From positions 1 through 38,645 of the IMG/VR virus record IMGVR_UViG_3300029319_000155: a stretch of 38,645 nt of DNA; one strand, written 5' to 3'. The notes under the pieces were generated by a model. The model was not told the DNA's origin and made no database searches. It worked only from the letters and a program-made list of their open reading frames with translations. A program made the translations under genes and the position numbers. Positions 1,978 to 18,786 of this stretch are shown in pieces. How positions within the stretch are numbered: the first letter of the stretch is position 1; the number at the start of each line of letters is the position of its first letter. Origin of the DNA: a virus.

Positions 1978-1978
1978 G

Positions 1979-2437: not shown

Positions 2438-2714
2438 CTTTCTTTTTACCTAAACGTTTTCTAACTATATTCATAACTGTTTTCATTTTACGAGCATAGC
2501 TAGGATTTTTTTGTCTATTAAAAACATACTGTTGATTTAAACTACTTATTATTTTAGACAAGTTACCTTTTCTAGTTTTAATAAGCCACGATGCTAACGC
2601 AGGTGGTGCTAAGTCTCTAAACTTACCTTTAGCATCAGGTGCGTCTGAGTCGTTCCAAGTAATAGACTTAGATGTTTTCTTTTTTCTTAATGGTGATGAT
2701 TTATATAATGCCAT
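2430..2714 (-). CDS. Small basic phage protein, unknown function
   Basis: A 94-aa protein starting MALYKSSPLRKKK, a basic leader that only loosely resembles the FKM-G tag of other small proteins here. The middle (SITWNDSDAPDAKGKFRDL, residues 17-35) is acidic and is followed by a helical region with ASWLIKTRKGNL and SSLNQQYVFNRQKNP; the tail is KKKDG. It starts at a TAATG junction with the upstream gene (1-base overlap) and overlaps the downstream one by 8 bases, so it is a real member of the coupled run. No known domain recognised. Confidence 0.78.
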   Translation of the reverse strand: MALYKSSPLRKKKTSKSITWNDSDAPDAKGKFRDLAPPALASWLIKTRKGNLSKIISSLNQQYVFNRQKNPSYARKMKTVMNIVRKRLGKKKDG

Positions 2715-3088: not shown

Positions 3089-3474
3089 TATTGAAATTTA
3101 TTTAGTATTAATGTATCAATAGAGTTCTGTATTGTTTTTTTATCTGCTTCAAGTTGAAACATTATGTTTGCGTTAAACCTTTCTTTTTCTATACCATTAT
3201 CAAATATGATAACAGTTGGTACAGCGGTTATACCATACTCGGTTTGTAATTTTGTGCAGTGCATAATATCAACTCTATATACACTAGTATCTTTTAATTT
3301 ATTAAGGTCTGCAAATTCATTAGCTTTATTCCAGCCAGCCCAAAACTCTACAGCTACAATATCTTTAGCTATTTTGTTATCAAAATTACCAGTGTTAATA
3401 ACCTCTTGCGCACATGTTCCAAAGCAGAATACAAGAGACATCATTGTAACATACAATATATTTGTTATGTTCAT
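3088..3474 (-). CDS. Secreted thioredoxin-fold protein lacking the CxxC active site
   Basis: A 128-aa protein with a hydrophobic signal peptide ending GTCA before Gln23. The mature part has the thioredoxin layout: beta strand IVAVEFWAGW (39-48), then WNKANEF where a thioredoxin would read WCxxC, then YRVDI, a LQTEYGITAVPTVIIFDNG region (76-94) with the conserved cis-Pro at P86, and a helical C-terminus. Both catalytic cysteines are replaced (N49 and N52); only C73 remains in the mature protein. It therefore cannot act as a dithiol oxidoreductase and is more likely a binding or chaperone-like periplasmic protein. Its neighbours are a single-TM protein and other secreted proteins. The fold call is strong from motif order; the role is unknown. 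Confidence 0.82.
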   Translation of the reverse strand: MNITNILYVTMMSLVFCFGTCAQEVINTGNFDNKIAKDIVAVEFWAGWNKANEFADLNKLKDTSVYRVDIMHCTKLQTEYGITAVPTVIIFDNGIEKERFNANIMFQLEADKKTIQNSIDTLILNKFQ

Positions 3475-3815
3475 TTCCTTAATAGTTTTATTTCATCTTT
3501 AATATAATCAAGGTCTTTTATTATTTGGTCTATTTGGTTACGAGCCATTTGATCTTTCATATTAAACTCCATACGAGTTGGCGGCCATGTGTTAGTAGCA
3601 GCTGGATCACCCATGTCTATAGTATACGTACCAGTACCTGGTTTAGGTAATTCTAATGCTTGCTCAACTTTACTTTCAAGTTCTGTAAACTTAGAGTTTA
3701 TACTAGCCATTAAACCAAAATAAGCAGATACAACTGTAACTACCGCTACAACTATACTAACTAATGTTTTAATACTTATTTGAAACTTACTGTCTTCTGA
3801 TAACTCTTTACTCAT
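3471..3815 (-). CDS. Single-pass membrane protein with coiled-coil tail (holin- or spanin-like candidate)
   Basis: A 114-aa protein: a short charged N-terminus (1-14), one clear transmembrane helix (about 15-37, VSIVVAVVTVVSAYFGLM), a short coiled-coil (ASINSKFTELESKVEQAL), a Pro/Gly linker, and a charged C-terminal helix (NQIDQIIKDLDYIKDEIK). I start at ATG 3815 rather than the upstream in-frame ATG at 3866, because 3866 lies inside the 49-aa gene in another frame and 3815 overlaps that gene's stop in the usual tight way. The topology would fit a single-TM holin or an inner-membrane spanin partner, and a DUF5675 protein is nearby, but no family motif proves a lysis role. Confidence 0.75.
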   Translation of the reverse strand: MSKELSEDSKFQISIKTLVSIVVAVVTVVSAYFGLMASINSKFTELESKVEQALELPKPGTGTYTIDMGDPAATNTWPPTRMEFNMKDQMARNQIDQIIKDLDYIKDEIKLLRK

Positions 3816-3957
3816 TATTAATATTTTTAAACTCTTTTTTAGGCCAAGGGTTTCTATCTCTACCAACTGAATCTAGCATTAACTTACCACTACCACCGTT
3901 AGTTTTATTTGCTCTACTATAATGTTTTCTTTTACCTGCTATTCTTCTTCTTGGCAT
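3808..3957 (-). CDS. 49-aa basic micro-protein
   Basis: A small gene of 49 codons. It starts MPRRRIAGKRKHYSRANKTN, has a Gly/Ser-rich middle and ends NPWPKKEFKNINNE. Its ATG overlaps the stop of the upstream secreted-protein gene as TAATG (shared base 3957), and its own stop overlaps the start of the membrane-protein gene by 8 bases. This chain of overlaps with no spare sequence supports it as real although it is short. The Arg/Lys-rich N-terminus could bind nucleic acid or membrane lipids; there is no recognised domain. Confidence 0.7.
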   Translation of the reverse strand: MPRRRIAGKRKHYSRANKTNGGSGKLMLDSVGRDRNPWPKKEFKNINNE

Positions 3958-4649
3958 TACTTAGCATATTTAATTTTACCATTTTCAATAAACAAACCTA
4001 CTCTTTCTCTAATAGCTTTTCCATCAATATTATATATCACATTATTTTGCTTTGATTTATCAAGTAGTTCATCAATACTAAAATTACAAGGCAGTCCAGT
4101 ATCACAATCAACATACTCTGTAATGTACTCTACAAACTCTACATATTCTATTTCTACAATAGTATCATAAACTATTACATCAACATATTCAATAACATCA
4201 ACGTATAATGTATCTAATACATCCTCGTAAACAAATACAGTATCAGTTATATAAATGTATTCTGGAACTAAAGTTTCGATCTCTACGGTGTCTAAAACAA
4301 TGTTATATACATATTCAGTTTCAACTATAGTATCAAATACAAATTCAAGCTCTGTTAATGTTATAAAAACAGTGTCACAAGCAATTGGTGTAGGTGGTCC
4401 ACACTCTGTTGCGAGCGTTGGTCCTTCAGCGTTTTCATCTGCTGCATCTAAACAGTCTTCCCAACCGTCATTAATCCAAGTTGTTTCTACACAACCGTTA
4501 GGTGAATACTGTGTCCAGTTGCTTGGGTCATCACCACAATAAAAACCTTCTTGCTCAGCACAAGCTAAACATAAGGCTTGAAAATCAAAACCTTGTGCAT
4601 TAGCGAGCGAGCCAATAAACGCAAATAGTATTATAATATATTTCTTCAT
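3957..4649 (-). CDS. Secreted acidic beta-repeat protein with no Lys/Arg in its mature stalk
   Basis: A 230-aa protein with a signal peptide (1-18, MKKYIIILFAFIGSLANA) and a mature start at Gln19. Residues 24-91 are Cys-rich (eight Cys: CLAC, YCGD, NGCVE, EDC, TEC and IAC). Residues 92-182 are a beta-prone stalk of irregular repeats built around D-T-[VIL] with alternating hydrophobic, Asp and Glu residues. From residue 4 to 197 there is no Lys, Arg or His. The last 26 residues (IYNIDGKAIRERVGLF, then ENGKIKYAK) resemble the short C-terminal motif found on many secreted Bacteroidetes proteins. Probably exported to the periplasm or cell surface. It lies between an outer-membrane barrel gene and small envelope genes. 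Function unknown; the sorting-signal idea is inference. Confidence 0.8.
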   Translation of the reverse strand: MKKYIIILFAFIGSLANAQGFDFQALCLACAEQEGFYCGDDPSNWTQYSPNGCVETTWINDGWEDCLDAADENAEGPTLATECGPPTPIACDTVFITLTELEFVFDTIVETEYVYNIVLDTVEIETLVPEYIYITDTVFVYEDVLDTLYVDVIEYVDVIVYDTIVEIEYVEFVEYITEYVDCDTGLPCNFSIDELLDKSKQNNVIYNIDGKAIRERVGLFIENGKIKYAK

Positions 4650-4651
4650 AA

Positions 4652-5704
4652 TTAAAATATTAAATAGTTAAAGCCAAATTTAATTTCATATACTGGTTTC
4701 ATCCAGTATCTTTGGTGTGTTCCTTCAACAAACATACCAAGTGATTTAGTTAATCTAGAACCAAACACTACACCAGCATCCCACTCTATATTATCATTAT
4801 CTTGTTTGCCATACTCAAATGAGTACTCATCTAAACCGTGATGTATCGGTAAGCAATTAGCCCAAGCATGTAGCCACATTTTATTAGTGTACTTATAATA
4901 AGCAACGCCAATGACTGCACTTAGTTCTCTTTGTAAACCTAATTTATCAAGCTCACGCTCGTTAAACCTAGCGACAGCTTCACCAAAGTAGTGATTAAAA
5001 AACTCATCGTTTGAGGTAGCGAGTAGGACAGAGTCTCCACTACTAACGTCGTACCAGTTCTGATCAACGTAAAAACCTTGCACCCATTGTTCGGGAGCGT
5101 AACCAAAGTCTTGGGCTATATCTTGAAAGTTAGAAGATCCTGGCACCCAGAAGTCTCTAATAGGATTAACACCATACACAGGATGTATTCTACCTACAAC
5201 ACCAGCTGTTAAATCCCAGTTGCCAACATTAACTCTAAACCTAAGATCTGTTGACATATATTTTAAATTTACTCTTTGATTATCTGCGTACTGCGCTTTT
5301 GCTACATACATGTCACCTAGGTATCTTAACCAAAAGTTTTGATTATTAAACTTCTCACCGCGTTCACGTATAAAAGAATAATTAAGTAAATACTCCCAAC
5401 CATTAGCATTACCTATAGTAACGTTATCAGCTACATTGTCTTCAGTACCGTAGTACCAAGTCTTAACTTTATATTCATAATCAAACCTAGCTATTTTACG
5501 AAGACCAATAGTTAAGTTGTAATCATAAGGATTAACAACGGTTACATCTTCATAACCTTTACCAATAGCTCTATAATCTTCTTGCTCTACAAAAGAAGTA
5601 CCAGTTGTCATTGATGCGTAAAACGTAGAGTACTTAAAAAAATCTTTAACTTGCCCAACACACACCGTGCTAACAAGTAGTAATAATATAATAATGTTTT
5701 TCAT
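4652..5704 (-). CDS. Outer-membrane beta-barrel protein encoded by the phage
   Basis: A 350-aa protein with a signal peptide (MKNIIILLLLVSTVCVG, mature at Gln18). The body consists of alternating aromatic-rich amphipathic strands with short turns (for example DYNLTIGLRKIARFDYEYKV, MSTDLRFRVNVGNWDLTAGV, AVIGVAYYKYTNKMWLHAWA) and it ends in FGFNYLIF with a terminal Phe, the usual signal for outer-membrane barrel insertion. The gene is in a small cassette of exported proteins. Plausible roles are changing the host surface during infection (superinfection exclusion or receptor masking) or forming a pore at lysis; neither can be chosen from sequence. The barrel call is good; I do not recognise a named family. 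Confidence 0.82.
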   Translation of the reverse strand: MKNIIILLLLVSTVCVGQVKDFFKYSTFYASMTTGTSFVEQEDYRAIGKGYEDVTVVNPYDYNLTIGLRKIARFDYEYKVKTWYYGTEDNVADNVTIGNANGWEYLLNYSFIRERGEKFNNQNFWLRYLGDMYVAKAQYADNQRVNLKYMSTDLRFRVNVGNWDLTAGVVGRIHPVYGVNPIRDFWVPGSSNFQDIAQDFGYAPEQWVQGFYVDQNWYDVSSGDSVLLATSNDEFFNHYFGEAVARFNERELDKLGLQRELSAVIGVAYYKYTNKMWLHAWANCLPIHHGLDEYSFEYGKQDNDNIEWDAGVVFGSRLTKSLGMFVEGTHQRYWMKPVYEIKFGFNYLIF

Positions 5705-5705
5705 A

Positions 5706-6020
5706 TTAACCTTTAAATCTACTCATATCAACATGAGTGTATTTTTCACCTCTATTTTCTATTTCTTTTTTTAACTTTAGCATTTGTCTTTCGTATCTAG
5801 CCATTTCAGATTTATCACCTCTATCTTTAGCTTCCAGGTATTCATTATCAAATATACCTTCTATTTGACCTTCTAATTTCCATGTAGGCATTTTTTGCAT
5901 TTCAGTTTGAGGTGTTGAGTCTGTATGCTCACTACCTTTATAACCTCTTGTTTTTGTTTGAGGTTCGTAATCTTTGTCTTTTTTTGTAAAAGCACTAAAG
6001 CCTTTCATTTTAAATCCCAT
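5706..6020 (-). CDS. Small charged protein with N-terminal FKM-G tag
   Basis: A 104-aa hydrophilic protein. The start MGFKMKGFSAFTKKDK is the clearest copy of the tag shared with genes starting at 1699, 1977 and 19390. After a Thr/Ser/Gly-rich disordered segment (17-40), residues 45-95 form a charged helix (KLEGQIEGIFDNEYLEAKD, then MARYERQMLKLKKEIENRG), and it ends HVDMSRFKG. There is one base between it and the DUF5675 gene upstream and one base before the barrel gene. No catalytic motif. A coiled-coil protein whose tag suggests the same destination as the other tagged proteins (inference). Confidence 0.8.
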   Translation of the reverse strand: MGFKMKGFSAFTKKDKDYEPQTKTRGYKGSEHTDSTPQTEMQKMPTWKLEGQIEGIFDNEYLEAKDRGDKSEMARYERQMLKLKKEIENRGEKYTHVDMSRFKG

Positions 6021-6021
6021 G

Positions 6022-6480
6022 TTATATTGTTTTATAAGTTATTGTTACATTTTCTCCACAATCAATAGCATTTGCTATATCAGGATATATCCTTTTATAA
6101 GCTTGAGTTGACTTACCTATAAAACCGTCCTTCGTGATTTGGTTATTTTCTTGTGAGTCTCCGACGAGTAAACAACCTGCCGTGTGTTCGTCAGTATTAC
6201 CGCAATGAATAAGAATGTACTCAAAATTAGGAACGTCGAGAACATGAAGCATGCCAATGTGAATATCACTAAAACGTTTCGAATACTTTGTATGATAGCC
6301 ACCAACCTTGCGTAAACCCAACTTGTAAGTTCCTTCAGGTATTCTTGTCTCGCCAAATTTTTTCTCATCTCTATATTCATCTTCAAGCGTGTATGCTAAA
6401 AATTTATTATTTGTTTTATCTATTAATATTCCATTAGTACTATCAGTACCACTAGAAAATCTAATTACTTCTAATTCCAT
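6022..6480 (-). CDS. DUF5675 family protein (possible cell-wall-related enzyme)
   Basis: A 152-aa protein matching the DUF5675 pattern as I know it: an early strand with LAYTLEDEYRD, the turn TRIPEGTYKLGLRK (45-58), then MLHVLDVPNFEYILIHCGN (77-95) and TAGCLLVG (100-107) with Cys93, His99 and Cys103. The layout of a His-containing strand followed by a G-C loop recalls L,D-transpeptidase (YkuD) cores, so a role on peptidoglycan is often suspected, but no activity is established to my knowledge. No signal peptide. It lies between a small beta-rich gene (abutting, 6481) and the tagged 104-aa gene, ahead of the envelope cassette. No classical endolysin is visible in the window, so this is a candidate lysis gene. 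Confidence 0.75.
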   Translation of the reverse strand: MELEVIRFSSGTDSTNGILIDKTNNKFLAYTLEDEYRDEKKFGETRIPEGTYKLGLRKVGGYHTKYSKRFSDIHIGMLHVLDVPNFEYILIHCGNTDEHTAGCLLVGDSQENNQITKDGFIGKSTQAYKRIYPDIANAIDCGENVTITYKTI

Positions 6481-6804
6481 TTAATTAACTATTACATCTA
6501 AATTATAACTGTTGTCTGTGTTAGATAAAGTAACTACTAAATCAAATCTAACCATATCTATATTTCTTATAGAATCTTCATCATAAATAAGAGTTGCTTT
6601 AGGTGGAAAATCTAAATCAAAAATTGTATGATGAACATCAGAACTACTAACAACTTCTTTTAAAGAAAGCCTAACGTTTTGATTAATAGCACTGGTATTA
6701 GTAAAAGATATAGAATTAAAACTACTACTAGATTTAGTAGATTTAGGCACTATAACATGCTCTGCTGTGTTTGATCCTGATATTTTAACGTATTTTACTG
6801 CCAT
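6481..6804 (-). CDS. Small beta-rich protein next to fibre gene, probable virion accessory
   Basis: A 107-aa protein starting MAVKYVKISGSNTAEHVIVP. It reads as a single beta-sandwich: Ser/Thr/Asn-rich strands (SFNSISFTNTSAINQNVRLS), then TIFDLDFPPKATLIYDED and a final FDLVVTLSNTDNSYNLDV. It lacks cysteine, signal peptide or catalytic motif. Its position directly after the fibre-like gene (10 bases away) suggests a small tail or decoration protein. Not a family I can name. Confidence 0.65.
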   Translation of the reverse strand: MAVKYVKISGSNTAEHVIVPKSTKSSSSFNSISFTNTSAINQNVRLSLKEVVSSSDVHHTIFDLDFPPKATLIYDEDSIRNIDMVRFDLVVTLSNTDNSYNLDVIVN

Positions 6805-6814
6805 GATTATTTAT

Positions 6815-7534
6815 TTAACCAGCTGAAACTTTTAATGTACCACTGTCGTTCCAAAGTTGACCAGCAACAGTTGGATCAGAAGTTGGTAAGCTTGTAAACT
6901 TTATTACACCACTAGCTGTTATAGCTTCAAGTGTACACTCACCATTAACTAATATACCTCCACTACCATTAGCTTTAAAAACTATATCAGTTACAGCCGG
7001 ATCGTTATAATTACTTCCAGCACTACCACCAGACTTACCTAAAAAAACTAAATTACCACTACTAGCTGTGCCAGTACCTCTACCTCCTGTTAGTATTAAA
7101 TTACCTCCTACTTTATTTGTACCAGCTCCACCACCTGCAGAAATTATCATATCTTGACCATTGATGTTAGCGCTATCATTAACATCTTTCATATCTGTTG
7201 TTTGTATATGAGCGGCTATTGGCGCGCCTAAAACACTGTATGGACTAAACTCAATTCTACTTGAAGAACTAGTATATGGAGGTCTATTATTAGTTATAAA
7301 CTGTCTAGTTATTGTAGTTTTATCATTTGTTGCAGCACCTTTAATAATTACTTCTCCCATATCGCTGCTATTTTTAAACAAAGTAATTTTATCATTTCCT
7401 ACGATTTTACTAGCACGAACACCTATAGCGCTTGATGTTGAAGAAGCTCCACTGGGATATTCTATACCGTCTAAATAAACATCACTTCTAAACCTAGCTA
7501 CAAATTGTTGTATAAATTGACCTATCCACCTCAT
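6815..7534 (-). CDS. Tail fibre-like / minor tail protein
   Basis: A 239-aa protein. The N-terminus MRWIGQFIQQFVARFRSDVY is a helix I recognise from marine phage fibre-like proteins (usually MRWIGQ, then ARFR.DVYLE). Gly/Ser/Thr-rich beta-helix-like repeats follow (about 125-200, for example NLILTGGRGTGTASSGNLVF), and the end LPTSDPTVAGQLWNDSGTLK is the small C-terminal motif common on phage fibre proteins. It starts within the ATGA overlap of a 26-aa ORF, so translation is probably coupled. Likely a host-binding or tail-tip structural protein; the receptor is unknown. At 239 aa it is short for a full fibre. Confidence 0.75.
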   Translation of the reverse strand: MRWIGQFIQQFVARFRSDVYLDGIEYPSGASSTSSAIGVRASKIVGNDKITLFKNSSDMGEVIIKGAATNDKTTITRQFITNNRPPYTSSSSRIEFSPYSVLGAPIAAHIQTTDMKDVNDSANINGQDMIISAGGGAGTNKVGGNLILTGGRGTGTASSGNLVFLGKSGGSAGSNYNDPAVTDIVFKANGSGGILVNGECTLEAITASGVIKFTSLPTSDPTVAGQLWNDSGTLKVSAG

Positions 7535-7611
7535 TTCTTTTTAGTACAAAGTTTTATTATTCCTGCAGCTGTAACAACTATTACAGTAGTGCATATTGGG
7601 CAAGGACACAT
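7531..7611 (-). CDS. 26-aa micro-ORF with CPCPIC motif
   Basis: A 26-codon ORF, MCPCPICTTVIVVTAAGIIK followed by LCTKKK. It has a cysteine cluster (C2, C4, C7) followed by a hydrophobic stretch of about 12 residues and a basic tail, so it could be a tiny membrane-anchored or metal-binding peptide. Its start overlaps the previous ORF's stop (TAATG, base 7611) and its stop overlaps the fibre gene's start (ATGA, 7531-7534). Sequence alone cannot show that it is made; the double overlap is the support. Confidence 0.5.
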   Translation of the reverse strand: MCPCPICTTVIVVTAAGIIKLCTKKK

Positions 7612-7790
7612 TATATTTCAAATCCAAAGTTAAACAACATAAGTCTAAACCTCTTACACTTACCTTTACTTTCACAAACCCAACAAGGGCAAAACATTAA
7701 TTCAAACACTGTTAAAGTGCTTATTCTTAATGATATTTCATATATATCTTTTTTATTTCTTGATTTCCAAGAATTTATCCAATTTATCAT
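7611..7790 (-). CDS. 59-aa small protein with CPCWVC motif
   Basis: A 59-aa ORF filling most of the space between the 3076-aa gene and the fibre gene. It starts MINWINSWKSRNKKDIYEIS and carries MFCPCWVCESKGKCKRFR (32-49), with Cys at 34, 36, 39 and 45, a plausible four-Cys metal site, followed by a hydrophobic C-terminus. The next 26-aa ORF also begins with a CPC-x2-C cluster, so the two may be related. Start preceded by TAAATTATG. Coupled to the next ORF by TAATG. Function unknown. Confidence 0.55.
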   Translation of the reverse strand: MINWINSWKSRNKKDIYEISLRISTLTVFELMFCPCWVCESKGKCKRFRLMLFNFGFEI

Positions 7791-7820
7791 AATTTACTTC
7801 TTTTATTTATTATCACACGT

Positions 7821-10800
7821 TTATTGGTGAGCATAACATTTTTTATTAGCGTTTTCAGTTTTGTTCTTACAGCGTTCACCGTTAGATTTTATAGCTGTAC
7901 ATCTATATTCTTTTTTACCATCACCATCAGTATCACTTCCTTCAACAAAACTTCTATGGTGTACACATAAGAATTTTTTCTCTGTTGTTTCACCAGTTAT
8001 CTTACATCTTTCACCGTTAGATCTTATACCAGAACACTGAACAGTTTTAATACCTTTAGCTTCTTTTTCTTTTTGTTCTTGTATTTTTTCTTGTTCTTTT
8101 TCTTCTTTTTTATCTTTCTTCCTTTGTTCTTTAGCATCTTCTTTAGCTTCTTCAAGTTCTTCATCTTCTATACCTATATCCCACTTGTTCCAACCAGCAA
8201 TTAAAGCTACACGTTGCCAAAGCTCATGATTACCAGTAACAGCTTCTTCTATGTTATTAGCTTTGTTAACTAACCTTGCTAATGGTAAGTTTGTTAAAGC
8301 TTCAACCCAGTTAGCAAATATAGACAAGTTAGGATTTTCAACTCTATAACCTATCTCTTTACCAACACCTTGATTAAACTGTTCTGTTTTTATAGCGTTA
8401 TATATTTTTCTAAGCTTACTACCTATAGGTGGAGATAAACTAACAGCTTCTAATAATATTCTACCATCATCTCTTTGACCAAAACCCTTTTGCCTTTGCT
8501 TATGCCATTGTATTAAAGTGTTTTTAAGTGTAGATAACATAGCTCCGTATATACCAGTACCTCTAAGTATAGTATCTAAAGCGCCGTTCATAACTCTTTC
8601 AACTTTTCTATTAACATCGTCACCATCTTCTTCATCGTCATTACCAAATAATAAAAACGCTAAACCACTTTGCATTGCACCAAACCAAACATTTTGTATA
8701 AAACCGTAATAAAGTATTTTAGATATATTAGTTTTCATATCACCTCTACCATTTGCAGCATCAGATAAAGCCTTTTTCAACAAACGAGTCATTTGCATTG
8801 GTGTGTTTTGCCAAGCTAATATTAATCTACCTAGTGTACCAGCTTGTTGTTGTGATATTAAATCTGGTCTAGAAGACTGTTGTGTTTCTTCAGCTACTTC
8901 TTGAAAGTCTAAAAATGCTTGATCTGCAGCTTGTTTAGGTGACATACCGTCTTTTATAAGTTTATTATATCTGTTTCTATAGAAACTAGCACCACCCATT
9001 GCTATAGCAAAACTATCAGCAATACGTGTAGGTGCAAAACCTTTTTCTAATAAAAATGCTATAACTGTTGATGGTGAATAACCTCTTTCTTTAAATACTG
9101 ATGTTAGTTCGTTTGCATTAACATCTATTTCTAAACCAGCACGACGTTGCTTTAACATGTCTGAATTAAATATCATAGCAAAGTCTTTCCAAAACTGTGG
9201 TTGGTTAGCAAATGCTTTAGCTGCTGCAAACATATTATTATCACTCCAGTTTATAAAGTTAACTGTAGATATAGTTTGTAGCATAGCAGATCTTATATTA
9301 AAGAACATTACCGCTCCAACAGAACCGTTTATCCATCTTAATAATCTATTAACATTTTTATCTTTACCAAAGTTTCTATTTGTACCGTTTTCCATACGAT
9401 ACAACATGTCTTCTAAAGCGTTTACATAATCAGGACCGTAAATAGCTTCTAACTTAGCTAAGTTTTCAGGTGAAAATATAATGTCTTTATTAGCTGAAAA
9501 GTCTTGTAAAAACTGTTGTCTACCAACACTACCAACTATACTATTTAAATCACCAGCTATAGTAGACACCATCCAGTTTGGTCCGGGCTCTATATAACCT
9601 TCTGTTCTAGTTATTTGTTGCAAAGACTCAGCATATGTTAGTAGGTCTGGATTATTATTAACTTTATCTAACAGTATTTGTAGTTCAGACTCTGATAAAC
9701 CTGGTATATTATAGCCAGCTTTATTCCAAAGATAAGCTCTTATAGCTGTATCAACAGTGTATGCTGTACCATCAACCTGATCTCTAAGTTTTACATTTGG
9801 CATACGCTTTCTAAGAGCTTGATACTCGTTAGCCATTGTTTGCTTATAAGTATTCCAAGCTCTAATACCCTTAGCATAAGGTTCAAATAGCTTTTCTTTC
9901 ATCCAAACAAACTGCCTGTCACCTACTTTACCTTTACCTAAAAGCTTATACATCAAACCTTTAAAATCTTCAGCTGATGGTGGTATAAAAAAGTCTTTAA
10001 ATTTTCTTGTTATAGAACGTTCAATAACACGACCTCTAACTCTACCTTCTGCCTGTGAAAACCTTCTTGATGAATCAACACCCGTTGTTTCCTCTATTAT
10101 CTTATTAAACTCTTTATCTATAGTAGAATCAGCATCTGGCTCTATTACTTTACTAGACATTTTATCACTAGTATCTACAAGTCTGTTAACTTGTTTTAAT
10201 TTAGCTTGTACAACTTTTGATTTAATATCTAATTGATCGAGTACATTTTTAACAGCGTCAACGTTTTGTAAAGCATCATCAACAAAATACATATCATTAT
10301 AACCTTCAGCAAATTTATCTAGCATCCACTGAGCTTTAGCCTCACCTCTACTATCAGCAAGACCAGTTATGTTTTCAAAAGGTATATCTATACCCTTTGA
10401 TTTTAACCAACCATTAATAGCTGATGCTGCTGCTTGTGGTCTAGCTGTTAGTATAAAAACATTATCAGCTCCATATTTAGCTATTTGATTTTTCATCTTT
10501 TGTAATAAAGGACCATCTACACCACCTCTAACATTAACAAAATCATCAAAGTTAAACTCATAACCCATATCAGCAAACTCAGGCCCTTGAACAGGCCAGT
10601 CACCTGAACTTATTCTTGTTTGCTCACCTGTTAATGGATTTGTAGCTATTACAAAATTTTCACCATCAATAATAAGTGTTTCATCAAAATCAAAAGTAGA
10701 CATACCTTTAACATCAACTTTGTTTTTGCTTTTTAATTTTTTAGTATTTTCTTGAAGTATGTTTTGAGTTTTAACAGCATTGCTTCTATCAAGCTGATTA

Positions 10801-13800
10801 CGATCCATTTCTAATTGTTGATCGTTAAATTGTTTATTTTTATTAAACTCAGATTTAGCTTGTTCTATTGTTTCTATTGAAGCACCACTGAGAACTTTAA
10901 CTATAAGTTCATTTTGAAGCTTTATAGTTTGTTGAGATGGATTACCAACAAAACCAACACCAAATTGTTCTGTTATAGTTTTACCAGTTGGCATCCACTT
11001 TAATTTATTTAAATTTATATACTCAACACTACCATCTTTCATCGTGTGAGGCACAGCGTATCTTATAAATGATATTAAACCATCATCTATGTTTTTTAAT
11101 TTACCATCTCTAAGTGCTGGTAGTATTTTATCATAAAATACTTGAGGAAAACTAGACTTATAATTTTTATTAACTATAGCGTGATCAGCTTTTGACAAAC
11201 TACCTTGAACTAATATTGCCTTTATTATAGGTCTAACTTGATCAACTAAACCAAGTTTAGATGCGTTCATATATAAGTTTCCAACAAGCCTTGCTGGTGA
11301 GCCGTGCTCTTCATCAAATAATGTTTCGGTATCTGTAGTGCCATCAGAATTTATACCGTGAAATAAATATGGAACTAAAACTCTATTATATGCACCACCT
11401 TGATTATTAGTTGTATTAGCTAACAACTCGTTCATAACAACAAAGTCTTGAGGTCTTGTTTTTAAATGTTTTTCAATAGCTTTATGAAAATCGTATAGTA
11501 GTTGTTCTCTAGCTTTAAAATCAGTTTCATATAGCTCTTTAATTTTTTTAGGCTTTTGTTTTTTACCTTCAACAACTTGAACTCTTTTTTCAACAGCTTG
11601 ATCTTGATCGTTTGGAGGATATTCATTATCAAAATTATCAACAGTACCGTACATACTTCTTTCCATACCGAAAACAGTAGTGTTTTTTATTATCTGTCTA
11701 AATTGAGGGTTGTTTTTTAAAAATGTTTTAAAACCAAGTTTAATGTGCTCACCTTGTGTTAAGCCTTGTTCGTATTGAGAAGGAGCTGTAAGATCTATAA
11801 AGTACATTGGTTTTCTTTTGTCTTTTTCAACTTTAAAACCAAGGTTAACTACTTCACCTGTTTCAGCATCTAAGTAAAAAGCTGTACCATCTATTTGTGA
11901 CATCCTAACATCACTAGTTTCTGATAGCTTTTGAATAGTATCACTGTCAATATTTTTTACTTTTCTATTATATAGTTTTTCAGGCGAACCATCTCTAAGT
12001 CTATTAGATATTTCACTACCAACAACTTGATTTTTAACAGCATTAAGTTTTGTTTCTTGAACAGCTGATAATGTAGCTAACACAACAGCTAACTCTCTTA
12101 TAGCACCATCTGCTTTAGTACCTGGTTGTAAACTACCGTTTTCATTTATACCAAACTTATCTAAAAACTCAGCTTTAGTTATATCAGATCTAAGTTTTAA
12201 TGTTGTTATACCAGAACCTGTATCTGTTTTTCTAGCTCTAGCACCTTTGTTATAAAAACTAATAAACGTTTTACCAACAAGTCCAGTAGCTTTACCACCA
12301 GTTGTAGCACCTTGATCTCCAAATATACTTAGTATTTCAGGTTTTAGCTGTCCACTATCATCAACACTTATATCGTATATCAACTTCTTTGCAGCGTTTC
12401 TTTGTTCTGTTGACAAGTCTTGTCTAGCTAAAATTCTAAGTGGATCAATACCCATATAACTAGCTACAGCATTTAAAACATTAAAATAAGGACCAGTTGG
12501 TATAGCAGACTTTTCTGTTTTTAAAGGCTTTTTAGTTTTAGGATTAACTACATCTGGGTCAAAGTCTTTATCAACCACTAAGTTTTTAATATTCTTAATA
12601 GCACTAAACTTAGATTTAGGGTCTGTAAGACTATTCATTAAATCAGCGTTCTGAGCTTGTTGAACTGTTTCGGATATAGTTGATCTATTGTCTTGTGGTA
12701 AATCTATTATGTCTGTAACAAATAACACGTCATCAACAGTTTGTTTTAAATCACGCTTTAATGTTGGTGTCATATCAGCGTTATCGATGTCTGTCATTAG
12801 CGTGTCTTTTTTATCCGCCACTGTATCAGCTATAGTACCACCATCTTCTGAAACTTGTCTGTCTAAAGATCTTCTATCACTACCACCTTCTTTCTTGTAC
12901 TGTTTCATTATATCACCCTTAGCTCTATATATAACAGATTTACCAGCGCCACCCGCAACACCAGTTAACCAACCAAATAAACTTGGGTTAGATATTCTAT
13001 AACCAGGTTTAAACTGCTCTAAACCATTTTCATCTAGTATAGGATTACCATTACGATCTTCAATTCTTTTAGGTAAAAATCTATCAGCTATTCTTTCTTT
13101 AACTTTTCTTGTGAAATCTATTAACGCTTCAGCTGGTAAGCCAAGCTCTGTCATACCTGATTGTATTAATCTGTCTAGTTTTTTACCCTGTAATATTTCA
13201 AAGTAAGCATCGTAAAAATCAGGACTAGACTCAAAGTCTTCTTGCGTTTTATATTTAGGCGTACCATCAGCATTTTTAGTATATTTATCGTATGTTGCCA
13301 TAAGATCAGGATCGGAATCCATATTTTGCTGAACAGATTTATTATGTAGTCTTTGTCTTTTTCTTTCTTGAGGAGTTCTAGCGTCTTCAAATACTTTACC
13401 ATTAGCACCCTTAGCTAACATTTTAGCTATAGCTTTACTTGGTTTATTATTAGCAATAGAATAATGATAATCTCTCATGAAGTTTTTAATGTCTTCAGTA
13501 GTATCAAACTTTATATCTCGTCCTAAATACTTTTGTGTAAACCTTCTATATACACCAGCTAATTTTTGTAATACATTATCGTTGAATTTTATATCACCGT
13601 CAAACATCATTTCAGATGCTATAGCCATCATTTCTTCACCTTGTTGATCTGGATTATATGCAGCTATTCTTTTATTAAACTCATTTAGTTTAGCTGTTGA
13701 AGAAAACGTAACACCTTTACCTTCTAATATAGTTTTTAGTTGATTACCTAATATCTTCCTCATAGCAGGATCTGCTTTCAGAGTATTAGCAAATGTAGCA

Positions 13801-16800
13801 TGTATAAACTCGTGAGCTGGTGTATTTAACATACCATCTGTAATAGCTGTTTCTTTGTTAACTATTATATCTATACCAGTTAAATTACCTTTGTTATCAA
13901 ACTTAGGTTGCATAACCCCATAGTCATCTGCAGCTAATAAGTTATCAGCTATTTTAACTTGGCTCTCAGCATCTTTTAATAGCTCTCTAGCGTTCTCAAC
14001 TTCTGAATCAGTAGAGTTAGGATCGTTTATAATTTCATTTAAACCCTCTACCATACCTATGTTTTCAGAAGCTATATTCTCAACCTGAGCTTTAGACATG
14101 TTTTGATCATACCTAGACTCTCTTTCTGAAAAACCTTCTCTATCAGTTTCTATTATATTTACAACTGGAGCACCATACTCAGCAGCCATGCTAGCCATAC
14201 GTTTTAACGTATTAATTTGTTTTTCGTAGTTTTTATCTACAACATTAGGTGGGTACTTGCTAATTATAGCTTGCTTTCTATTGTTTCTAGAGTCTATTCT
14301 ATTTTGTACTTCTTGTATTTTTTTAGCTCTATCATCTTTAGATAACTCAGGGTCTTTTTTAATATTGTCTATTTCTTTATTATCTAAATAATTTCTTTTG
14401 TCTATTTCAACTAAAGCTCTTTTTTCAGTTGGGTGTAGTAAGTCTACTCTTTTTATATCTTGTTCAACTAGTCTATTGCTCTCATCAACTAATTCTACGT
14501 ATTGATTTTCTAGTTTCTCTATTAACTCTAAGTTTTTAGGATCACCAGAGTTTTTAAGTTCAGTTATTCTTTTTGTTAAGTCACCAATTTCAACACCTAT
14601 TTTAGCAACTCTATCACTACTGTTTTTAGATAAGAAAGGTCTAGTAATAGGTCCTATTAATCTAGGTGATTGCATTGCTGCTGCTAAAACAGCTCCATTT
14701 ATAAAAGCTTCATCTACACCATCAAATAAACCAACTTCATCTTTACCGCTAATATACTTGTCAGCAAAGTTACCAACAACAGCGCTAAGTCCTTCTGCAA
14801 CACCTTCTTCTAACATTTCATTACCTAAACCTATAGTTGTTCTACCAGCTGTTGTTAATATAGAACTTAGTGTAGATTTTACACCAGTATTAATAGCTTG
14901 TTGAGATATAGGTCCAAATAAAGATCTAGCTGTTGCACCTAGTATTTTACCTGTAGTATATTCAAGAGCACCTTCAGCAGCTCCACTTAACGTAGCATTT
15001 AAAGCCATAGAACCAAAGCTATGGTTCATGCCATATATACCTCCAGTTTGTTTATAAAGCTCTCTCTCGTCTTGCATCTGCCTATACTTACCACCTATAC
15101 TAGAAGCTGATATTATAGCTAAACCAGGTAAACCTCCAGTTACAGCTAACGTAGCTAATATAGGTGCTTGGCTAACTGCTTGAGAAGCGAAGTATTCAGC
15201 ATAATCACTACCATCTTTTAAATCTTCCCATTTTGGTGGTATTTTAACTCTAGAATCAAAACTTTCTTTTAAACCTGTATACTTTTCTCTTGTAATATCC
15301 CAAAGACTAACTCTCTCATCTTCACCTTCTTTTTTAACGACATCTGAAAACACGAGATTTGTTACAGGTGCCGCATATGTTAAAGCAGCGTTTGTAAAAA
15401 ACTTAACAGCTTTTCTAGTATTTGGATCATCTATACTATTTATAAGCTCTTCTTTACCTTCTACAGCCATATCAACAGCATCAACAAGGTTTACTGCAAA
15501 ATCTGGAAAAGACATTAGTACAGATCTAAGACCGTAAGCTTCATATATTCTATTAGCTTCTTTGCTATACAAACCTATCTCACTAGCATTTAAATCTAAC
15601 TCATCAAGTTCCGCTCTAGTTTTACTATCAAGCTCACCATACTCTTGCATAGTTTTAAATAAATAATCTTGCTTCTGCTGCTTATCAATAAGTTGATCTC
15701 TTAACTTTGTTAATTTAGCATTAGCTTCATCAACCTCTTCTTGAGTTGTATACTTTCCGTTTTTTATATCATTAAACTGCTTTAACAAAGCCTCACTTTC
15801 AGCCTTGTTATCAATCATCATTTGCTCACCTTTAGTATAAGCATCAGCTATACCTTTAAGTGTTTTTGTTTTAACTTCTACTTCAGTTCTAACATCACTT
15901 AATATATCTTCACTTATTTCTTTTCGTATATTTTTTTGTTCATCAGAAAGATCTTTTTGATCTTCCATAACGTTGTTGTTAAATATCTCACTTTTTAGTT
16001 GTGACTTAACAGAGTTTTGAAAATCATCATGAATATCACCTTGTTCATTTAATGATTTTATAGCATTATTATACTGTTCTTGAGTTATACTACCGTTTTG
16101 TAATTGGTTATTTAAATCAACTCTTTGTTTTCTAAAATCGTTAGACTTTTTTGTAGCTTCATCTAAAAAAGGTTGAAAGTCATTTGCGTTAATTATTTTT
16201 TCGTAATCAACCTCAAAGTCTTTATCATCTTTTCTTTTTTCTCTAACATAGTTTTCTACAGCTGATGATTGAATAGCTTGTTTATAAAGTTGATTATCAA
16301 CAGGTGGTTTAGGTTTTTTTAAAGTTTTTTCAACCATCCTATTGTTTTCATAAACATTAGTAACAATTTCATCTACATCACCATATTGACTAGTCCACTC
16401 TTCTAAATCAGAAGCATATTTTTCTGCGTCTTGATATATTTTATTAACACTATTATTTACCTCATCTTTAATCTCATCATCATGAGTACCTCTTCTAGCG
16501 TTATTTAACTCTTGATTAACTAAATCTCTATTAACGTTAATTTTATGAGTGTTCATAAACTCAGTCATCTGCTTAGCAACTTCTTCGTCTTGAGCTAGAG
16601 TCCATTTATCTATTTTAAACTCTTTAGAAACTTCGTTATCTTGGTCTTTATTTGCTATTATTCTAACAACATCTCTACCTACGGAAGCTTGTTCAAAATC
16701 AAAACCAAATTTAGAATATTGATCTGTTAGCATTTTAACAGCTCTACGCTCGTTACGTCTTGTTATATCAGTTGTTACACTTGGTAGTTCTTCAACTACT

Positions 16801-17051
16801 TCTTTTTCGTTTTTATTTTGTTTGGATTGTTGTTCTAGATTATCGAACGTTGTTACAGAAGGTAACAACTCAGAGTTTTCGTATTTATTTGGTAATGGTT
16901 TTTTAGGCTCGTCTTCGTTTTTAGGAGCGTTTTGAAGTTTTGCATTTGGAAACTTAGATAAGAATAAATCTTTATCTTTAGCGTTTACATCTATTAGTTT
17001 TTCTCTACCTGGTATTTCATATACCAAGATAGAATTATCTTGTTCTGCCAT
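7821..17051 (-). CDS. Giant 3076-aa internal/ejection protein with peptidase-like, HAD-phosphatase and zinc-knuckle segments
   Basis: A 3076-aa protein in the position of the large internal (ejection) protein of T7-like phages. Visible segments: a charged coiled-coil-rich N-terminal third; hydrophobic stretches near 630-650 (LATLAVTGGLPGLAIISAS) and 2780-2807; a HExxH site H1080-E1081-F-I-H1084 with acidic residues in GEEMMAIASE (E1139-E1147), as in zinc peptidases; and a HAD phosphatase module with D2121-F-D2123-E-T-L, T2202 in LTARP, K2239 and D2258-D2259. A helical region (about 2300-2900) resembles phage polyvalent proteins. The C-terminus (3006-3075) has two C-x9-C...C-x2-H knuckles flanking an Asp-rich DTDGDG loop. 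It probably enters the host with the DNA, where its enzymes could act on envelope, protein or small phosphorylated substrates. One open frame, no frameshift seen. The enzyme activities are inferred from motifs only. Confidence 0.85.
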   Translation of the reverse strand: MAEQDNSILVYEIPGREKLIDVNAKDKDLFLSKFPNAKLQNAPKNEDEPKKPLPNKYENSELLPSVTTFDNLEQQSKQNKNEKEVVEELPSVTTDITRRNERRAVKMLTDQYSKFGFDFEQASVGRDVVRIIANKDQDNEVSKEFKIDKWTLAQDEEVAKQMTEFMNTHKINVNRDLVNQELNNARRGTHDDEIKDEVNNSVNKIYQDAEKYASDLEEWTSQYGDVDEIVTNVYENNRMVEKTLKKPKPPVDNQLYKQAIQSSAVENYVREKRKDDKDFEVDYEKIINANDFQPFLDEATKKSNDFRKQRVDLNNQLQNGSITQEQYNNAIKSLNEQGDIHDDFQNSVKSQLKSEIFNNNVMEDQKDLSDEQKNIRKEISEDILSDVRTEVEVKTKTLKGIADAYTKGEQMMIDNKAESEALLKQFNDIKNGKYTTQEEVDEANAKLTKLRDQLIDKQQKQDYLFKTMQEYGELDSKTRAELDELDLNASEIGLYSKEANRIYEAYGLRSVLMSFPDFAVNLVDAVDMAVEGKEELINSIDDPNTRKAVKFFTNAALTYAAPVTNLVFSDVVKKEGEDERVSLWDITREKYTGLKESFDSRVKIPPKWEDLKDGSDYAEYFASQAVSQAPILATLAVTGGLPGLAIISASSIGGKYRQMQDERELYKQTGGIYGMNHSFGSMALNATLSGAAEGALEYTTGKILGATARSLFGPISQQAINTGVKSTLSSILTTAGRTTIGLGNEMLEEGVAEGLSAVVGNFADKYISGKDEVGLFDGVDEAFINGAVLAAAMQSPRLIGPITRPFLSKNSSDRVAKIGVEIGDLTKRITELKNSGDPKNLELIEKLENQYVELVDESNRLVEQDIKRVDLLHPTEKRALVEIDKRNYLDNKEIDNIKKDPELSKDDRAKKIQEVQNRIDSRNNRKQAIISKYPPNVVDKNYEKQINTLKRMASMAAEYGAPVVNIIETDREGFSERESRYDQNMSKAQVENIASENIGMVEGLNEIINDPNSTDSEVENARELLKDAESQVKIADNLLAADDYGVMQPKFDNKGNLTGIDIIVNKETAITDGMLNTPAHEFIHATFANTLKADPAMRKILGNQLKTILEGKGVTFSSTAKLNEFNKRIAAYNPDQQGEEMMAIASEMMFDGDIKFNDNVLQKLAGVYRRFTQKYLGRDIKFDTTEDIKNFMRDYHYSIANNKPSKAIAKMLAKGANGKVFEDARTPQERKRQRLHNKSVQQNMDSDPDLMATYDKYTKNADGTPKYKTQEDFESSPDFYDAYFEILQGKKLDRLIQSGMTELGLPAEALIDFTRKVKERIADRFLPKRIEDRNGNPILDENGLEQFKPGYRISNPSLFGWLTGVAGGAGKSVIYRAKGDIMKQYKKEGGSDRRSLDRQVSEDGGTIADTVADKKDTLMTDIDNADMTPTLKRDLKQTVDDVLFVTDIIDLPQDNRSTISETVQQAQNADLMNSLTDPKSKFSAIKNIKNLVVDKDFDPDVVNPKTKKPLKTEKSAIPTGPYFNVLNAVASYMGIDPLRILARQDLSTEQRNAAKKLIYDISVDDSGQLKPEILSIFGDQGATTGGKATGLVGKTFISFYNKGARARKTDTGSGITTLKLRSDITKAEFLDKFGINENGSLQPGTKADGAIRELAVVLATLSAVQETKLNAVKNQVVGSEISNRLRDGSPEKLYNRKVKNIDSDTIQKLSETSDVRMSQIDGTAFYLDAETGEVVNLGFKVEKDKRKPMYFIDLTAPSQYEQGLTQGEHIKLGFKTFLKNNPQFRQIIKNTTVFGMERSMYGTVDNFDNEYPPNDQDQAVEKRVQVVEGKKQKPKKIKELYETDFKAREQLLYDFHKAIEKHLKTRPQDFVVMNELLANTTNNQGGAYNRVLVPYLFHGINSDGTTDTETLFDEEHGSPARLVGNLYMNASKLGLVDQVRPIIKAILVQGSLSKADHAIVNKNYKSSFPQVFYDKILPALRDGKLKNIDDGLISFIRYAVPHTMKDGSVEYINLNKLKWMPTGKTITEQFGVGFVGNPSQQTIKLQNELIVKVLSGASIETIEQAKSEFNKNKQFNDQQLEMDRNQLDRSNAVKTQNILQENTKKLKSKNKVDVKGMSTFDFDETLIIDGENFVIATNPLTGEQTRISSGDWPVQGPEFADMGYEFNFDDFVNVRGGVDGPLLQKMKNQIAKYGADNVFILTARPQAAASAINGWLKSKGIDIPFENITGLADSRGEAKAQWMLDKFAEGYNDMYFVDDALQNVDAVKNVLDQLDIKSKVVQAKLKQVNRLVDTSDKMSSKVIEPDADSTIDKEFNKIIEETTGVDSSRRFSQAEGRVRGRVIERSITRKFKDFFIPPSAEDFKGLMYKLLGKGKVGDRQFVWMKEKLFEPYAKGIRAWNTYKQTMANEYQALRKRMPNVKLRDQVDGTAYTVDTAIRAYLWNKAGYNIPGLSESELQILLDKVNNNPDLLTYAESLQQITRTEGYIEPGPNWMVSTIAGDLNSIVGSVGRQQFLQDFSANKDIIFSPENLAKLEAIYGPDYVNALEDMLYRMENGTNRNFGKDKNVNRLLRWINGSVGAVMFFNIRSAMLQTISTVNFINWSDNNMFAAAKAFANQPQFWKDFAMIFNSDMLKQRRAGLEIDVNANELTSVFKERGYSPSTVIAFLLEKGFAPTRIADSFAIAMGGASFYRNRYNKLIKDGMSPKQAADQAFLDFQEVAEETQQSSRPDLISQQQAGTLGRLILAWQNTPMQMTRLLKKALSDAANGRGDMKTNISKILYYGFIQNVWFGAMQSGLAFLLFGNDDEEDGDDVNRKVERVMNGALDTILRGTGIYGAMLSTLKNTLIQWHKQRQKGFGQRDDGRILLEAVSLSPPIGSKLRKIYNAIKTEQFNQGVGKEIGYRVENPNLSIFANWVEALTNLPLARLVNKANNIEEAVTGNHELWQRVALIAGWNKWDIGIEDEELEEAKEDAKEQRKKDKKEEKEQEKIQEQKEKEAKGIKTVQCSGIRSNGERCKITGETTEKKFLCVHHRSFVEGSDTDGDGKKEYRCTAIKSNGERCKNKTENANKKCYAHQ

Positions 17052-17081: not shown

Positions 17082-18131
17082 TTATTTTGTAGGAACGAAA
17101 GCGTCGTTATCTGTCTGCGTATTTGTTTTTATTTCAAAACCTTCATCAGGAACTACTCTAAGAGCTGTACCTGCTTCAAAGTTATTTTGTAAGTGTTTTG
17201 TAAAATAGTTAGCTAATAATTCATTAGCTGTATCACTATCATTTTTTATAAGTTCTTTAAATATTAATTCAGCGTCTGCTTCATCTAATTGACCATCACC
17301 ATCCATATCTTTAAGTTCAACACCTAGGTCTTTATAAGTATTTTTTTGTAACTCATCTATAAAGTTTGCTGCAAATGGTTGACCAGGTATAATCTCATCA
17401 TAAAATAAAGACATTTTATTTTGAGACTTACCTATTAAATTTGTTTTAATTTGATCTTTTTGAGCTTCAAAGGGAAAGTTTAATTTTTGACCATATGCAA
17501 CTTGAGCAGATAATTGCATATTTTTATTAGCATAAACTTGTAATAAATCTCTTGAATCTGTATCAACCCTATTTTTTTGTATAGTATCTTTTAATTTAGA
17601 TATATCTGTAAAAACTTCTTCACCGTCAGGACCTGGCATCATAACACCTAATCTACCTTTATCATTTTGAACTAAACTTGATTTATCTTCTAGTAATTTA
17701 AAGTAAGCTTCACCCTCTGGGCTATCTATAAAGCTTTGACTAAAACCATCAGTATCATTAAGTTTTAAGTCAGCTAACTCAGTTCTAAACTCTTTATACT
17801 CACTAACGTCTTGAGCTTTCATGTTTAAGTCTCTTGTAAGTAAAGCTTTATCTTTTCTACTACCACTTATAAACATGTTTCTATTATTCTGTAAACTATC
17901 ATATAACGCGTCATATTCATCAGCTGGTAATTCACCACTAGCATCTAATACAGCTTGAGCTTTCTCATCATAAACTTTAGCTGCTTCTATACGTTTGTCT
18001 AAAAATTTTTGGCCAACACTAGTTATACTATCTATTAAACTACTAGTGCCATCAGCTTTAGCAGTTATTTTAGCTGCACGAGCTTTTGCTACTGCACCTG
18101 CACCTTGTATTAAAGTTTGATCTACTGCCAT
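17082..18131 (-). CDS. Internal virion / ejection-type protein with EF-hand-like calcium loop
   Basis: A 349-aa, mostly helical protein without signal peptide or TM. The Ala/Lys-rich N-terminus (AGAVAKARAAKITAKADG) is followed by charged helices. Residues 275-286 read DMDGDGQLDEAD, a good EF-hand or dockerin-like loop with D275, D277, D279, D283 and D286 as candidate Ca2+ ligands, just before the helix AELIFKELI. It lies between the 211-aa and 3076-aa genes, where T7 has its second internal protein (gp15), though at half that length and with no sequence link visible to me. Role inferred from position. Confidence 0.65.
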   Translation of the reverse strand: MAVDQTLIQGAGAVAKARAAKITAKADGTSSLIDSITSVGQKFLDKRIEAAKVYDEKAQAVLDASGELPADEYDALYDSLQNNRNMFISGSRKDKALLTRDLNMKAQDVSEYKEFRTELADLKLNDTDGFSQSFIDSPEGEAYFKLLEDKSSLVQNDKGRLGVMMPGPDGEEVFTDISKLKDTIQKNRVDTDSRDLLQVYANKNMQLSAQVAYGQKLNFPFEAQKDQIKTNLIGKSQNKMSLFYDEIIPGQPFAANFIDELQKNTYKDLGVELKDMDGDGQLDEADAELIFKELIKNDSDTANELLANYFTKHLQNNFEAGTALRVVPDEGFEIKTNTQTDNDAFVPTK

Positions 18132-18150
18132 ATTATATTATATTTATTAT

Positions 18151-18786
18151 TTACACTTCTATCAAGCCAGCATCAATACCGCCCATTATAGAAGTAGTTG
18201 CACCACTTATACCTTCACCAATACCACTATATACAGCTTGTTGAGCGTCTGCTGCAGCTTGTGCATATTGTGCTGTTTCAGCTTGAGACATACCAAGTAG
18301 TGTACCAACTTTATCTCTTTCCATACGTTGTGACTCTCTTTCGCCTTGAGCTTTTAATCGTTGGTTTTGAGCTGCCTGTGATGCTGCTGCCATTTGGTTT
18401 CTAGATTCTTGTTCACCTATACTAGCTGCTGATTTTTGCGCTGCTAACTGTCCTGATTGAGCTAATTGTTGAGCGATAGCTGCTACACCAGATCCGCCTG
18501 AGGCACCTCTTACGGCATCTAGTATATTAGCTTGACTTTGTTGAAACTGTTGAGCTTCAAACTGAGCTTGTTTCTGGTTCACTGTTAAATCCTCCATGGT
18601 ATTTTCCATGTTGGCATATGGATTACTAGTGTCTAGTTGTGAATAAGCTTGTTTCATCCTATTCATCTCTTTTCTAGCTTTACGCTCTTTTCTTTCCGCC
18701 TGTCTTTTAGCTTTACCAGCGCCTATTGCTTTTATACCACCACCAATAAGTGCACCAGCTGCTAATCCTGCTGCTATAAATGACAT
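18151..18786 (-). CDS. Internal virion / DNA-ejection (pilot) protein, T7 gp14-like by size and position
   Basis: A 211-aa protein. The N-terminus MSFIAAGLAAGALIGGGIKA is a Gly/Ala-rich hydrophobic segment able to insert in a membrane, followed by a very basic helix (KRQAERKERKARKEMNRMKQ) and an Ala/Gln-rich helical body (QANILDAVRGASGGSGVAAI, then AQSGQLAAQKSAASIGEQES). Such Ala/Gln-rich proteins with a membrane-active N-terminus are typical of podovirus internal proteins and microvirus pilot proteins that form a channel for DNA delivery. It is the first of three consecutive genes (211, 349 and 3076 aa) matching the T7 order gp14-gp15-gp16. Good call as an ejection protein; exact homology unverified. 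Confidence 0.75.
   Translation of the reverse strand: MSFIAAGLAAGALIGGGIKAIGAGKAKRQAERKERKARKEMNRMKQAYSQLDTSNPYANMENTMEDLTVNQKQAQFEAQQFQQSQANILDAVRGASGGSGVAAIAQQLAQSGQLAAQKSAASIGEQESRNQMAAASQAAQNQRLKAQGERESQRMERDKVGTLLGMSQAETAQYAQAAADAQQAVYSGIGEGISGATTSIMGGIDAGLIEV

Follow-up and report, generated by a model that had tools for sequence, protein, structure and literature searches.

We interpret, with moderate confidence, the 3076-aa protein encoded by the giant gene of a viral fragment as a phage polyvalent protein, multidomain and virion delivered, that carries a Pnkp-like end-healing module. The fragment, the 38.6-kb record IMGVR_UViG_3300029319_000155, was analyzed over its full 38,645 nucleotides, hereafter the window. 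All the motif residues that a preliminary description had cited were found at the positions given there: H1080, E1081, and H1084 in HEFIH (residues 1080 to 1084), D2121 and D2123 in DFDET (residues 2121 to 2125), T2202 in LTAR, K2239, and D2258/D2259. The two C-terminal Cys3His knuckles were likewise present (C3006-x9-C3016-x12-C3029-x2-H and C3051-x9-C3061-x10-C3072-x2-H), and they hold every one of the six cysteines of the protein. When the 3076-aa protein was shuffled, HExxH arose by chance in 1% of the versions and a hydrophobic-DxDxT string in 26%. Thus, the DxDxT motif alone is weak evidence for a HAD domain, and conservation must carry the claim. Searches with the whole protein returned no match in Pfam, even at an E value of 1, and none in PHROGs at an E value of 0.01, and tblastn with residues 1501 to 3076 had no match in cultured phages. 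The features discussed below are collected in Table 1.

Table 1. Features of the giant protein and its cassette, with window coordinates
Feature	Coordinates	Strand	Evidence or distribution
Giant protein P0001, 3076 aa	7821..17051	-	ATG start; ORF and translation; ejection-protein position
Residues 1-560, variable N-terminal part	15372..17051	-	Iterated profiles, 10 to 19 of 83
Residues 560-900, Gly-rich region	14352..15374	-	tblastn, BLASTP, hydropathy and Gly content
Residues 1040-1262, zincin-like metallopeptidase domain (predicted)	13266..13934	-	80/83 complete relatives by iterated profile
HEFIH, residues 1080-1084	13800..13814	-	H, E, H invariant in 78/78 aligned domains
E1140, candidate third zinc ligand	13632..13634	-	Invariant in 78/78 aligned domains
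Residues 1263-2085, linker region, length varies among relatives	10797..13265	-	Iterated profiles
Residues 2112-2290, HAD domain, Pnkp 3'-phosphatase type (predicted)	10182..10718	-	Z 11.8 Pnkp1, 11.7 T4 Pnkp; PHROG_415
Residues 2300-2965, conserved C-terminal domain, mostly helical	8157..10154	-	83/83 complete relatives; helical in model
Residues 3000-3076, two Cys3His knuckles	7824..8054	-	Related tail in 66/83 complete relatives
349-aa protein, cassette middle member, gp15-like position	17082..18131	-	Weak relatives, same place, L001, L003, L009, L022
211-aa Gly/Ala-rich protein, cassette first member, gp14-like position	18151..18786	-	44-58% identical relatives, same place, six loci

An initial IMG/VR scan yielded 25 loci, and a second one, in which an alignment of the C-terminal part served as the query, gave at least 586 loci with confirmed relatives, the best 80 of which were kept. 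Binned genomes added six relatives, three of them from Bacteroidota; the others, from Alphaproteobacteria, Aliivibrio, and Woesearchaeota bins, may be misbinned phage contigs. After removal of duplicates, the non-redundant set comprised 98 members, including the window protein. The family comes from a very abundant and mostly uncultured group of Bacteroidota phages. In this set, whose best 80 relatives were ranked by a query containing the HAD so that HAD-bearing members are favored, the motifs DxDxT/S, T/S-x-R, and DD were kept in every one of the 95 members with a retained HAD region, and the residues D, D, T, T, R, K, D, and D were invariant in the 63 HAD-only rows. Of the 83 complete members, iterated profiles reached 80 for the zincin region, 82 for the HAD, all 83 for residues 2300 to 2960, and 66 for the knuckle tail, while the HExxH motif was found in 82 of the 83 complete ORFs. 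Two or more conserved domains of enzymatic type therefore share one large chain, as in polyvalent proteins. One relative, L115, apparently has no HAD. Another, L097, had been read as devoid of the zincin domain, a reading that we rejected since its gene is split and the upstream ORF carries the HExxH domain. The two overlapping ORFs of L097 span 1185 to 8075 (zincin) and 8003 to 12826 (HAD with kinase), and the split is due to a sequencing error or, alternatively, to the halves being naturally separate.

The HAD assignment of the preliminary description held: structure prediction and structural search gave a genuine HAD fold, and the catalytic residues were invariant. In a model of residues 2085 to 2973, the HAD part was among the better regions (block pLDDT mostly 58 to 85). 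When the Foldseek candidates were submitted to full structural alignment, the top seven of 980 chains were all Pnkp1 or T4 Pnkp (Z scores of 10.3 to 11.8 and rmsd of 2.4 to 2.8 over 114 to 128 residues). Pnkp1 ranked highest (4xru and 4xrp, Z 11.8, rmsd 2.5, 125 to 128 residues), and the T4 Pnkp entries ranged from 5uj0 (Z 11.7) and 1ltq (Z 11.3) to 2ia5 (Z 10.3); the next HAD stood at Z 10.1 with an rmsd of 5.1 Å, a small margin from the lowest Pnkp row. Foldseek alone yielded weak HAD matches (E values near 0.3), the best being 1zjj, Lem4, Ceg4, and Nir2, with no Pnkp among the matches listed. In a viral structure library, HAD-sized matches included PNKP-phosphatase proteins of phages EC150 and Wc4 along with the polynucleotide kinase of phage BRock. 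At the sequence level, PHROG_415, named polynucleotide kinase, matched 37 of the 63 HAD-only segments (3e-6 at best) and covered the whole HAD in the three that were inspected; the window protein's own HAD had no PHROG_415 match. Alignment of the HAD profile with the T4 Pnkp sequence was confined to motif I. The T4 enzyme has the motifs DVDGT, SGR, and IDD, and the set DxDxT, S/T-x-R, K, and DD occurs in the 63 family rows; lipin-type HADs, too, have the T/S-x-R of motif II. When solved structures were searched with profiles of the HAD-plus-C-terminal and HAD-only alignments, nothing meaningful emerged. Capnocytophaga belongs to the Flavobacteriaceae, the bacterial family of the hosts of the cultured relatives. 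It is also the source of Pnkp1 (PMC4411300).

Of 95 relatives, 23 have a P-loop kinase inserted into the HAD, at the same point in each. The insert consists of about 200 extra residues directly after motif I (DFDDTL), and the P-loop, GGAGSGKG/S, lies about 35 residues into it. The nested kinase matched AAA_33 (4e-14) and Zeta_toxin (2e-11) in Pfam and the polynucleotide kinase PHROG_505 (2.7e-9 at best). Profile alignment placed it over the kinase domain of T4 Pnkp (E value of 2.7e-5), with a conserved P-loop, D39 opposite T4 D35, and R136 opposite T4 R126. A further candidate, L065, was rejected as kinase bearing, as its P-loop match falls outside the HAD. Mapped on the tree of the C-terminal domain, the kinase label required four changes versus about 21 by chance; by this tree, the nested kinase appears to be inherited within clades, yet with several gains, losses, or exchanges. 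A HAD phosphatase and a kinase in one module is the layout of Pnkp, in a topology unlike that of T4. Together, the fold matches to Pnkp and the nested kinase of the relatives point to a polynucleotide 3'-phosphatase of the T4 Pnkp type as the likely nature of the HAD. On the structural model, polynucleotide 3' ends are its most likely substrate, a shared fold not being proof of function. The preliminary description had called a HAD in an ejected protein unusual and its substrate unknown; the former stands, and the latter no longer does, for a likely substrate can be named from the fold matches and the relatives' kinase. The window protein itself has no 5'-kinase domain, and we accordingly do not file it as a Pnkp; just its HAD is filed as Pnkp-phosphatase-like.

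Could the HAD, with its nested kinase where there is one, act instead on small molecules or signals such as nucleotides, cyclic-oligonucleotide products, or sugar nucleotides? The kinase would then be a zeta-toxin-like UDP-GlcNAc kinase that weakens the wall during entry. The Zeta_toxin match speaks for this, as does the nearest entry of the viral structure library, apparently a kinase-bearing relative, which bears a kinase name alone (UDP-N-acetylglucosamine kinase in UniProt); moreover, zeta-like kinases are known in polyvalent proteins and in fusions to MuF (PMC5512222). However, such a role leaves unexplained why the HAD ranks closest to Pnkp 3'-phosphatases and why HADs without a kinase match PHROG polynucleotide kinases, and a kinase joined to a Pnkp-type phosphatase in one module is how Pnkp is built. 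We consider this alternative unlikely. A slightly lower probability goes to a HAD of the Lem4/Ceg4 or LNS2 type, a phosphatase of proteins or lipids whose target at the site of entry would be a host protein or a membrane phospholipid. The best HAD rows of Foldseek (1zjj, Lem4, Ceg4, and Nir2) are in line with it, and so are weak matches to DUF2608, a family of the HAD clan, in 14 of 22 members (the window member fell below the cutoff). In the full alignment, Nir2 reached Z 9.8, but rows of this type spanned Z 8.4 to 9.8 versus 10.3 to 11.8 for Pnkp, and a phosphatase of this kind would leave the nested kinase unaccounted for.

Upstream of the HAD, the preliminary description had noted a peptidase-like HExxH site. 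Among 19 diverse members with a mean column identity of 24%, the only invariant columns were a G, the H, E, and H of the motif, and a later E, and these five stayed invariant in an alignment of 78 zincin rows. Both HExxH and E1140 lie in predicted helices. In polyvalent proteins, the ligands of zincin-like MPTase domains are provided by a HEXXH helix and a Glu in a later helix (PMC5512222); the invariant H, E, H, and E are the conservation pattern of a zincin and match the MPTase definition of that survey. The zincin fold has a three-stranded sheet; in an AlphaFold model of the region (mean pLDDT of 66), two strands precede the helix with HExxH, and the Glu falls in a helix farther on. A structural search with this model found no metallopeptidase; matches were confined to its N-terminal helical hairpin and are uninformative. 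The profile of the zincin alignment gave nothing meaningful against solved structures, and it matched gp20 of Flavobacterium phage elemoC (E value of 2.8e-7), in which HExxH is kept as HEIFH. The conservation pattern favors the peptidase-like reading, and the poor model gave no peptidase match.

This poor model and the lack of a peptidase among the structural matches would also fit a helical domain in which HExxH is coincidental or binds metal only, a reading compatible with a Pnkp-like HAD; alphaKG-HExxH enzymes, for instance, carry the motif and are not proteases (reference 29 of PMC12633501). We regard this as improbable, given that four of the five columns invariant at such low identity are H, E, H, and a later E, the known zincin set, that HExxH is rare by chance in a protein of this composition, and that the elemoC domain matches the zincin profile with the motif kept. 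If the domain is a peptidase, it is less likely to be an effector delivered for its own sake; by analogy with known polyvalent proteins, its proposed role would be polypeptide processing (PMC5512222).

The remaining segments differ in their conservation. Residues 1 to 560 were reached by iterated profiles in just 10 to 19 of the 83 complete relatives. The Gly-rich region that follows contains the most hydrophobic 19-residue segment of the giant protein (residues 631 to 649) and is common to gp101 of Cellulophaga phage phi38:1 and gp074 of Tenacibaculum phage Gundel_1 by tblastn and BLASTP; it is a candidate membrane or channel part. The linker between zincin and HAD, taken by thirds, was reached by the profiles in 29, 49, and 15 of the 83 complete relatives, and the HExxH-to-HAD spacing ranges from about 880 to 1410 residues. 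This stretch of ∼800 residues could hide another enzyme. The C-terminal domain (residues 2300 to 2965) is the hallmark of the family and, in the viral structure library, weakly resembles ART-PolyVal and LPD phage proteins in structure. The knuckle tail had no match to a Pfam family; the Cys knuckles are real but accessory, and they vary among relatives.

The giant gene comes after the portal, scaffold-position, capsid, and tail genes and is the last of a series of 211-aa, 349-aa, and giant products. This agrees with the T7 gp16-like position that had been attributed to it, namely, the third gene of a small-medium-giant cassette downstream of the tail genes. The cassette sits in a late gene run, and the same series occurs in phi38:1 (gp099 to gp101), Gundel_1, and elemoC. 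In the relatives as in the window, virion genes (portal, capsid, and tail) stand in the same run as the giant gene, which is also the setting of polyvalent proteins. The capsid and portal of the window are nearest those of Flavobacteriaceae podoviruses and their environmental kin (MW202828, Maribacter phage Panino, elemo, and Cellulophaga phages). The similarity to Gundel_1 gp074 extends over residues from about 550 to 1025 and, in part, over the C-terminal domain (7e-11); gp074 also has an HExxH motif. A profile search found no HAD in the giants of elemoC, Gundel_1, phi38:1, Panino, or MW202828. The late position, the label structural protein that most syntenic giants of cultured phages carry, and the processing of P1 DdrB before packaging (PMC5512222) could all suit a structural, tape-measure-like internal protein whose domains work only in assembly or inside the head, for example, with the zincin as a maturation protease and no enzyme delivered, but this is the least probable of the alternatives, as assembly offers no obvious task for a HAD of polynucleotide type with an optional kinase, and the catalytic residues of that HAD are kept in 95 of 95 members. 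The late position and the structural labels are also in line with delivery from the virion, as are the zincin of elemoC gp20 and the C-terminal domain and HExxH of Gundel_1 gp074.

Several other genes of the window, all on the minus strand, deserve mention. The 349-aa cassette protein has a DMDGDGQLDEADAE stretch that resembles the calcium loop of an EF-hand or dockerin. A 176-aa protein of the PAP2 superfamily (864 to 1394; PF01569, 8e-8), encoded in the late region, is a possible lipid phosphatase. A 128-aa protein with an N-terminal signal-like segment (3088 to 3474) looks thioredoxin-like (FWAGW), and positions 6022 to 6480 encode a DUF5675 protein (3e-27). A 2205-aa protein (23661 to 30278; phrog_14478) has a C-terminal part in common with the 1324- to 1551-aa virion structural proteins of cultured flavophages and is much longer than these.

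We also searched the records of the family for a ligase partner, whose presence would make end repair a stronger reading. Of 41 records, 14 (the T4 control included) gave an RNA_ligase signal, but ATP-dependent DNA ligases at these same places accounted for it, so it lends no support to RNA ligation. An ATP-dependent DNA ligase, of a type common in phages, was present in 21 of the 40 longer records (T4 control excluded). A T4-Rnl1-like ligase was found in none of 47 records, by a search whose control also gave no signal. The record of L078 (G035) has two separate DNA-ligase matches, and in that of L090 (G040) the ligase is in two pieces.

From the observed gene and its late position, the conservation, the HAD fold with the structures nearest to it, and the kinase nested in relatives, we infer a course of packaging, injection, autocleavage, and enzymatic activity, with a substrate and a benefit. 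The giant protein would be packed together with the two smaller proteins of the cassette and would leave the head with or before the DNA. Its hydrophobic N-terminal part might anchor it in the envelope, and the zincin domain could then cleave the chain, thereby releasing its C-terminal half into the cytoplasm. At broken RNA or DNA ends, the HAD would then strip off 3'-phosphate and perhaps also 2',3'-cyclic phosphate. Roughly one relative in four has the nested kinase, which would phosphorylate the matching 5' ends and so make a complete end-healing enzyme. The gain may be repair, before phage gene expression, of tRNA cut by host defense nucleases or of nicked incoming phage DNA. More tentatively, then, a very large uncultured group of Bacteroidota phages possibly delivers an end-healing enzyme from the virion, a 3'-phosphatase with, in some lineages, a nested 5'-kinase, which would heal tRNA or DNA ends broken by defenses prior to expression.

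Known phage RNA repair, by T4 Pnkp and its RNA ligase, needs phage gene expression after infection. Repair delivered by the virion, if true, would act in the gap that precedes phage expression, when RNA-cleaving defenses strike. A polyvalent ejected protein is of a known kind; the combination of a Pnkp-type HAD with a nested kinase is absent from the text of the defining survey (PMC5512222) and from the literature searched. The size of the family, its strict catalytic conservation, and the recurrent presence or absence of the kinase at one site make the substrate question directly testable.

Four known systems, together with the cultured relatives, offer points of comparison. In T7, the tail gene run ends with gp14, gp15, and gp16 in order of increasing size, and gp16 has about 1318 residues and a transglycosylase domain. 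The window cassette has the same order, but its giant protein has no lysozyme-like Pfam match. The giants elemoC gp20, Gundel_1 gp074, and phi38:1 gp101 occupy the same genomic place and are linked to the window protein by the zincin match of elemoC (2.8e-7) and by the C-terminal domain (7e-11) and HExxH of Gundel_1; unlike it, they all lack DxDxT and do not match the HAD profile significantly. The virion RNA polymerase of N4, gp50, is an analogue known from experiment; this ejected protein of about 3,500 residues combines a likely membrane N terminus with an HExxH domain (C1) and a large helical one (C2) (PMC12633501). The window protein resembles it in its giant size, in a candidate membrane part toward the N terminus, and in an HExxH domain followed by a large helical domain, and ejection together with two smaller proteins is known for gp50 and proposed here; the window protein differs in its Pnkp-like HAD and in having no RNA polymerase match in PHROG or Pfam. 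Polyvalent proteins (Iyer et al. 2017, PMC5512222) are similarly very large, combine several enzymatic domains per chain, including HEXXH with a downstream Glu, and are encoded among virion genes; the proposal made for them is that they are packaged and injected and that their MPTase domains process the chain. Haloacid, phosphatase, and polynucleotide kinase do not occur in the text of that survey, and the window protein, for its part, has no match to any Pfam family. Finally, T4 Pnkp and the Pnkp1 of the Capnocytophaga Pnkp1-Rnl-Hen1 complex (PMC4411300) are the closest HAD folds by Z score and share DxDxT, S/T-x-R, and DD. T4 Pnkp unites a kinase and a HAD phosphatase in one module, as do 23 of the relatives, but its kinase is N-terminal to the HAD, whereas that of the relatives lies inside it, and the T4 enzyme is a separate protein of 301 aa, whereas the HAD described here is part of a giant protein of the late region.
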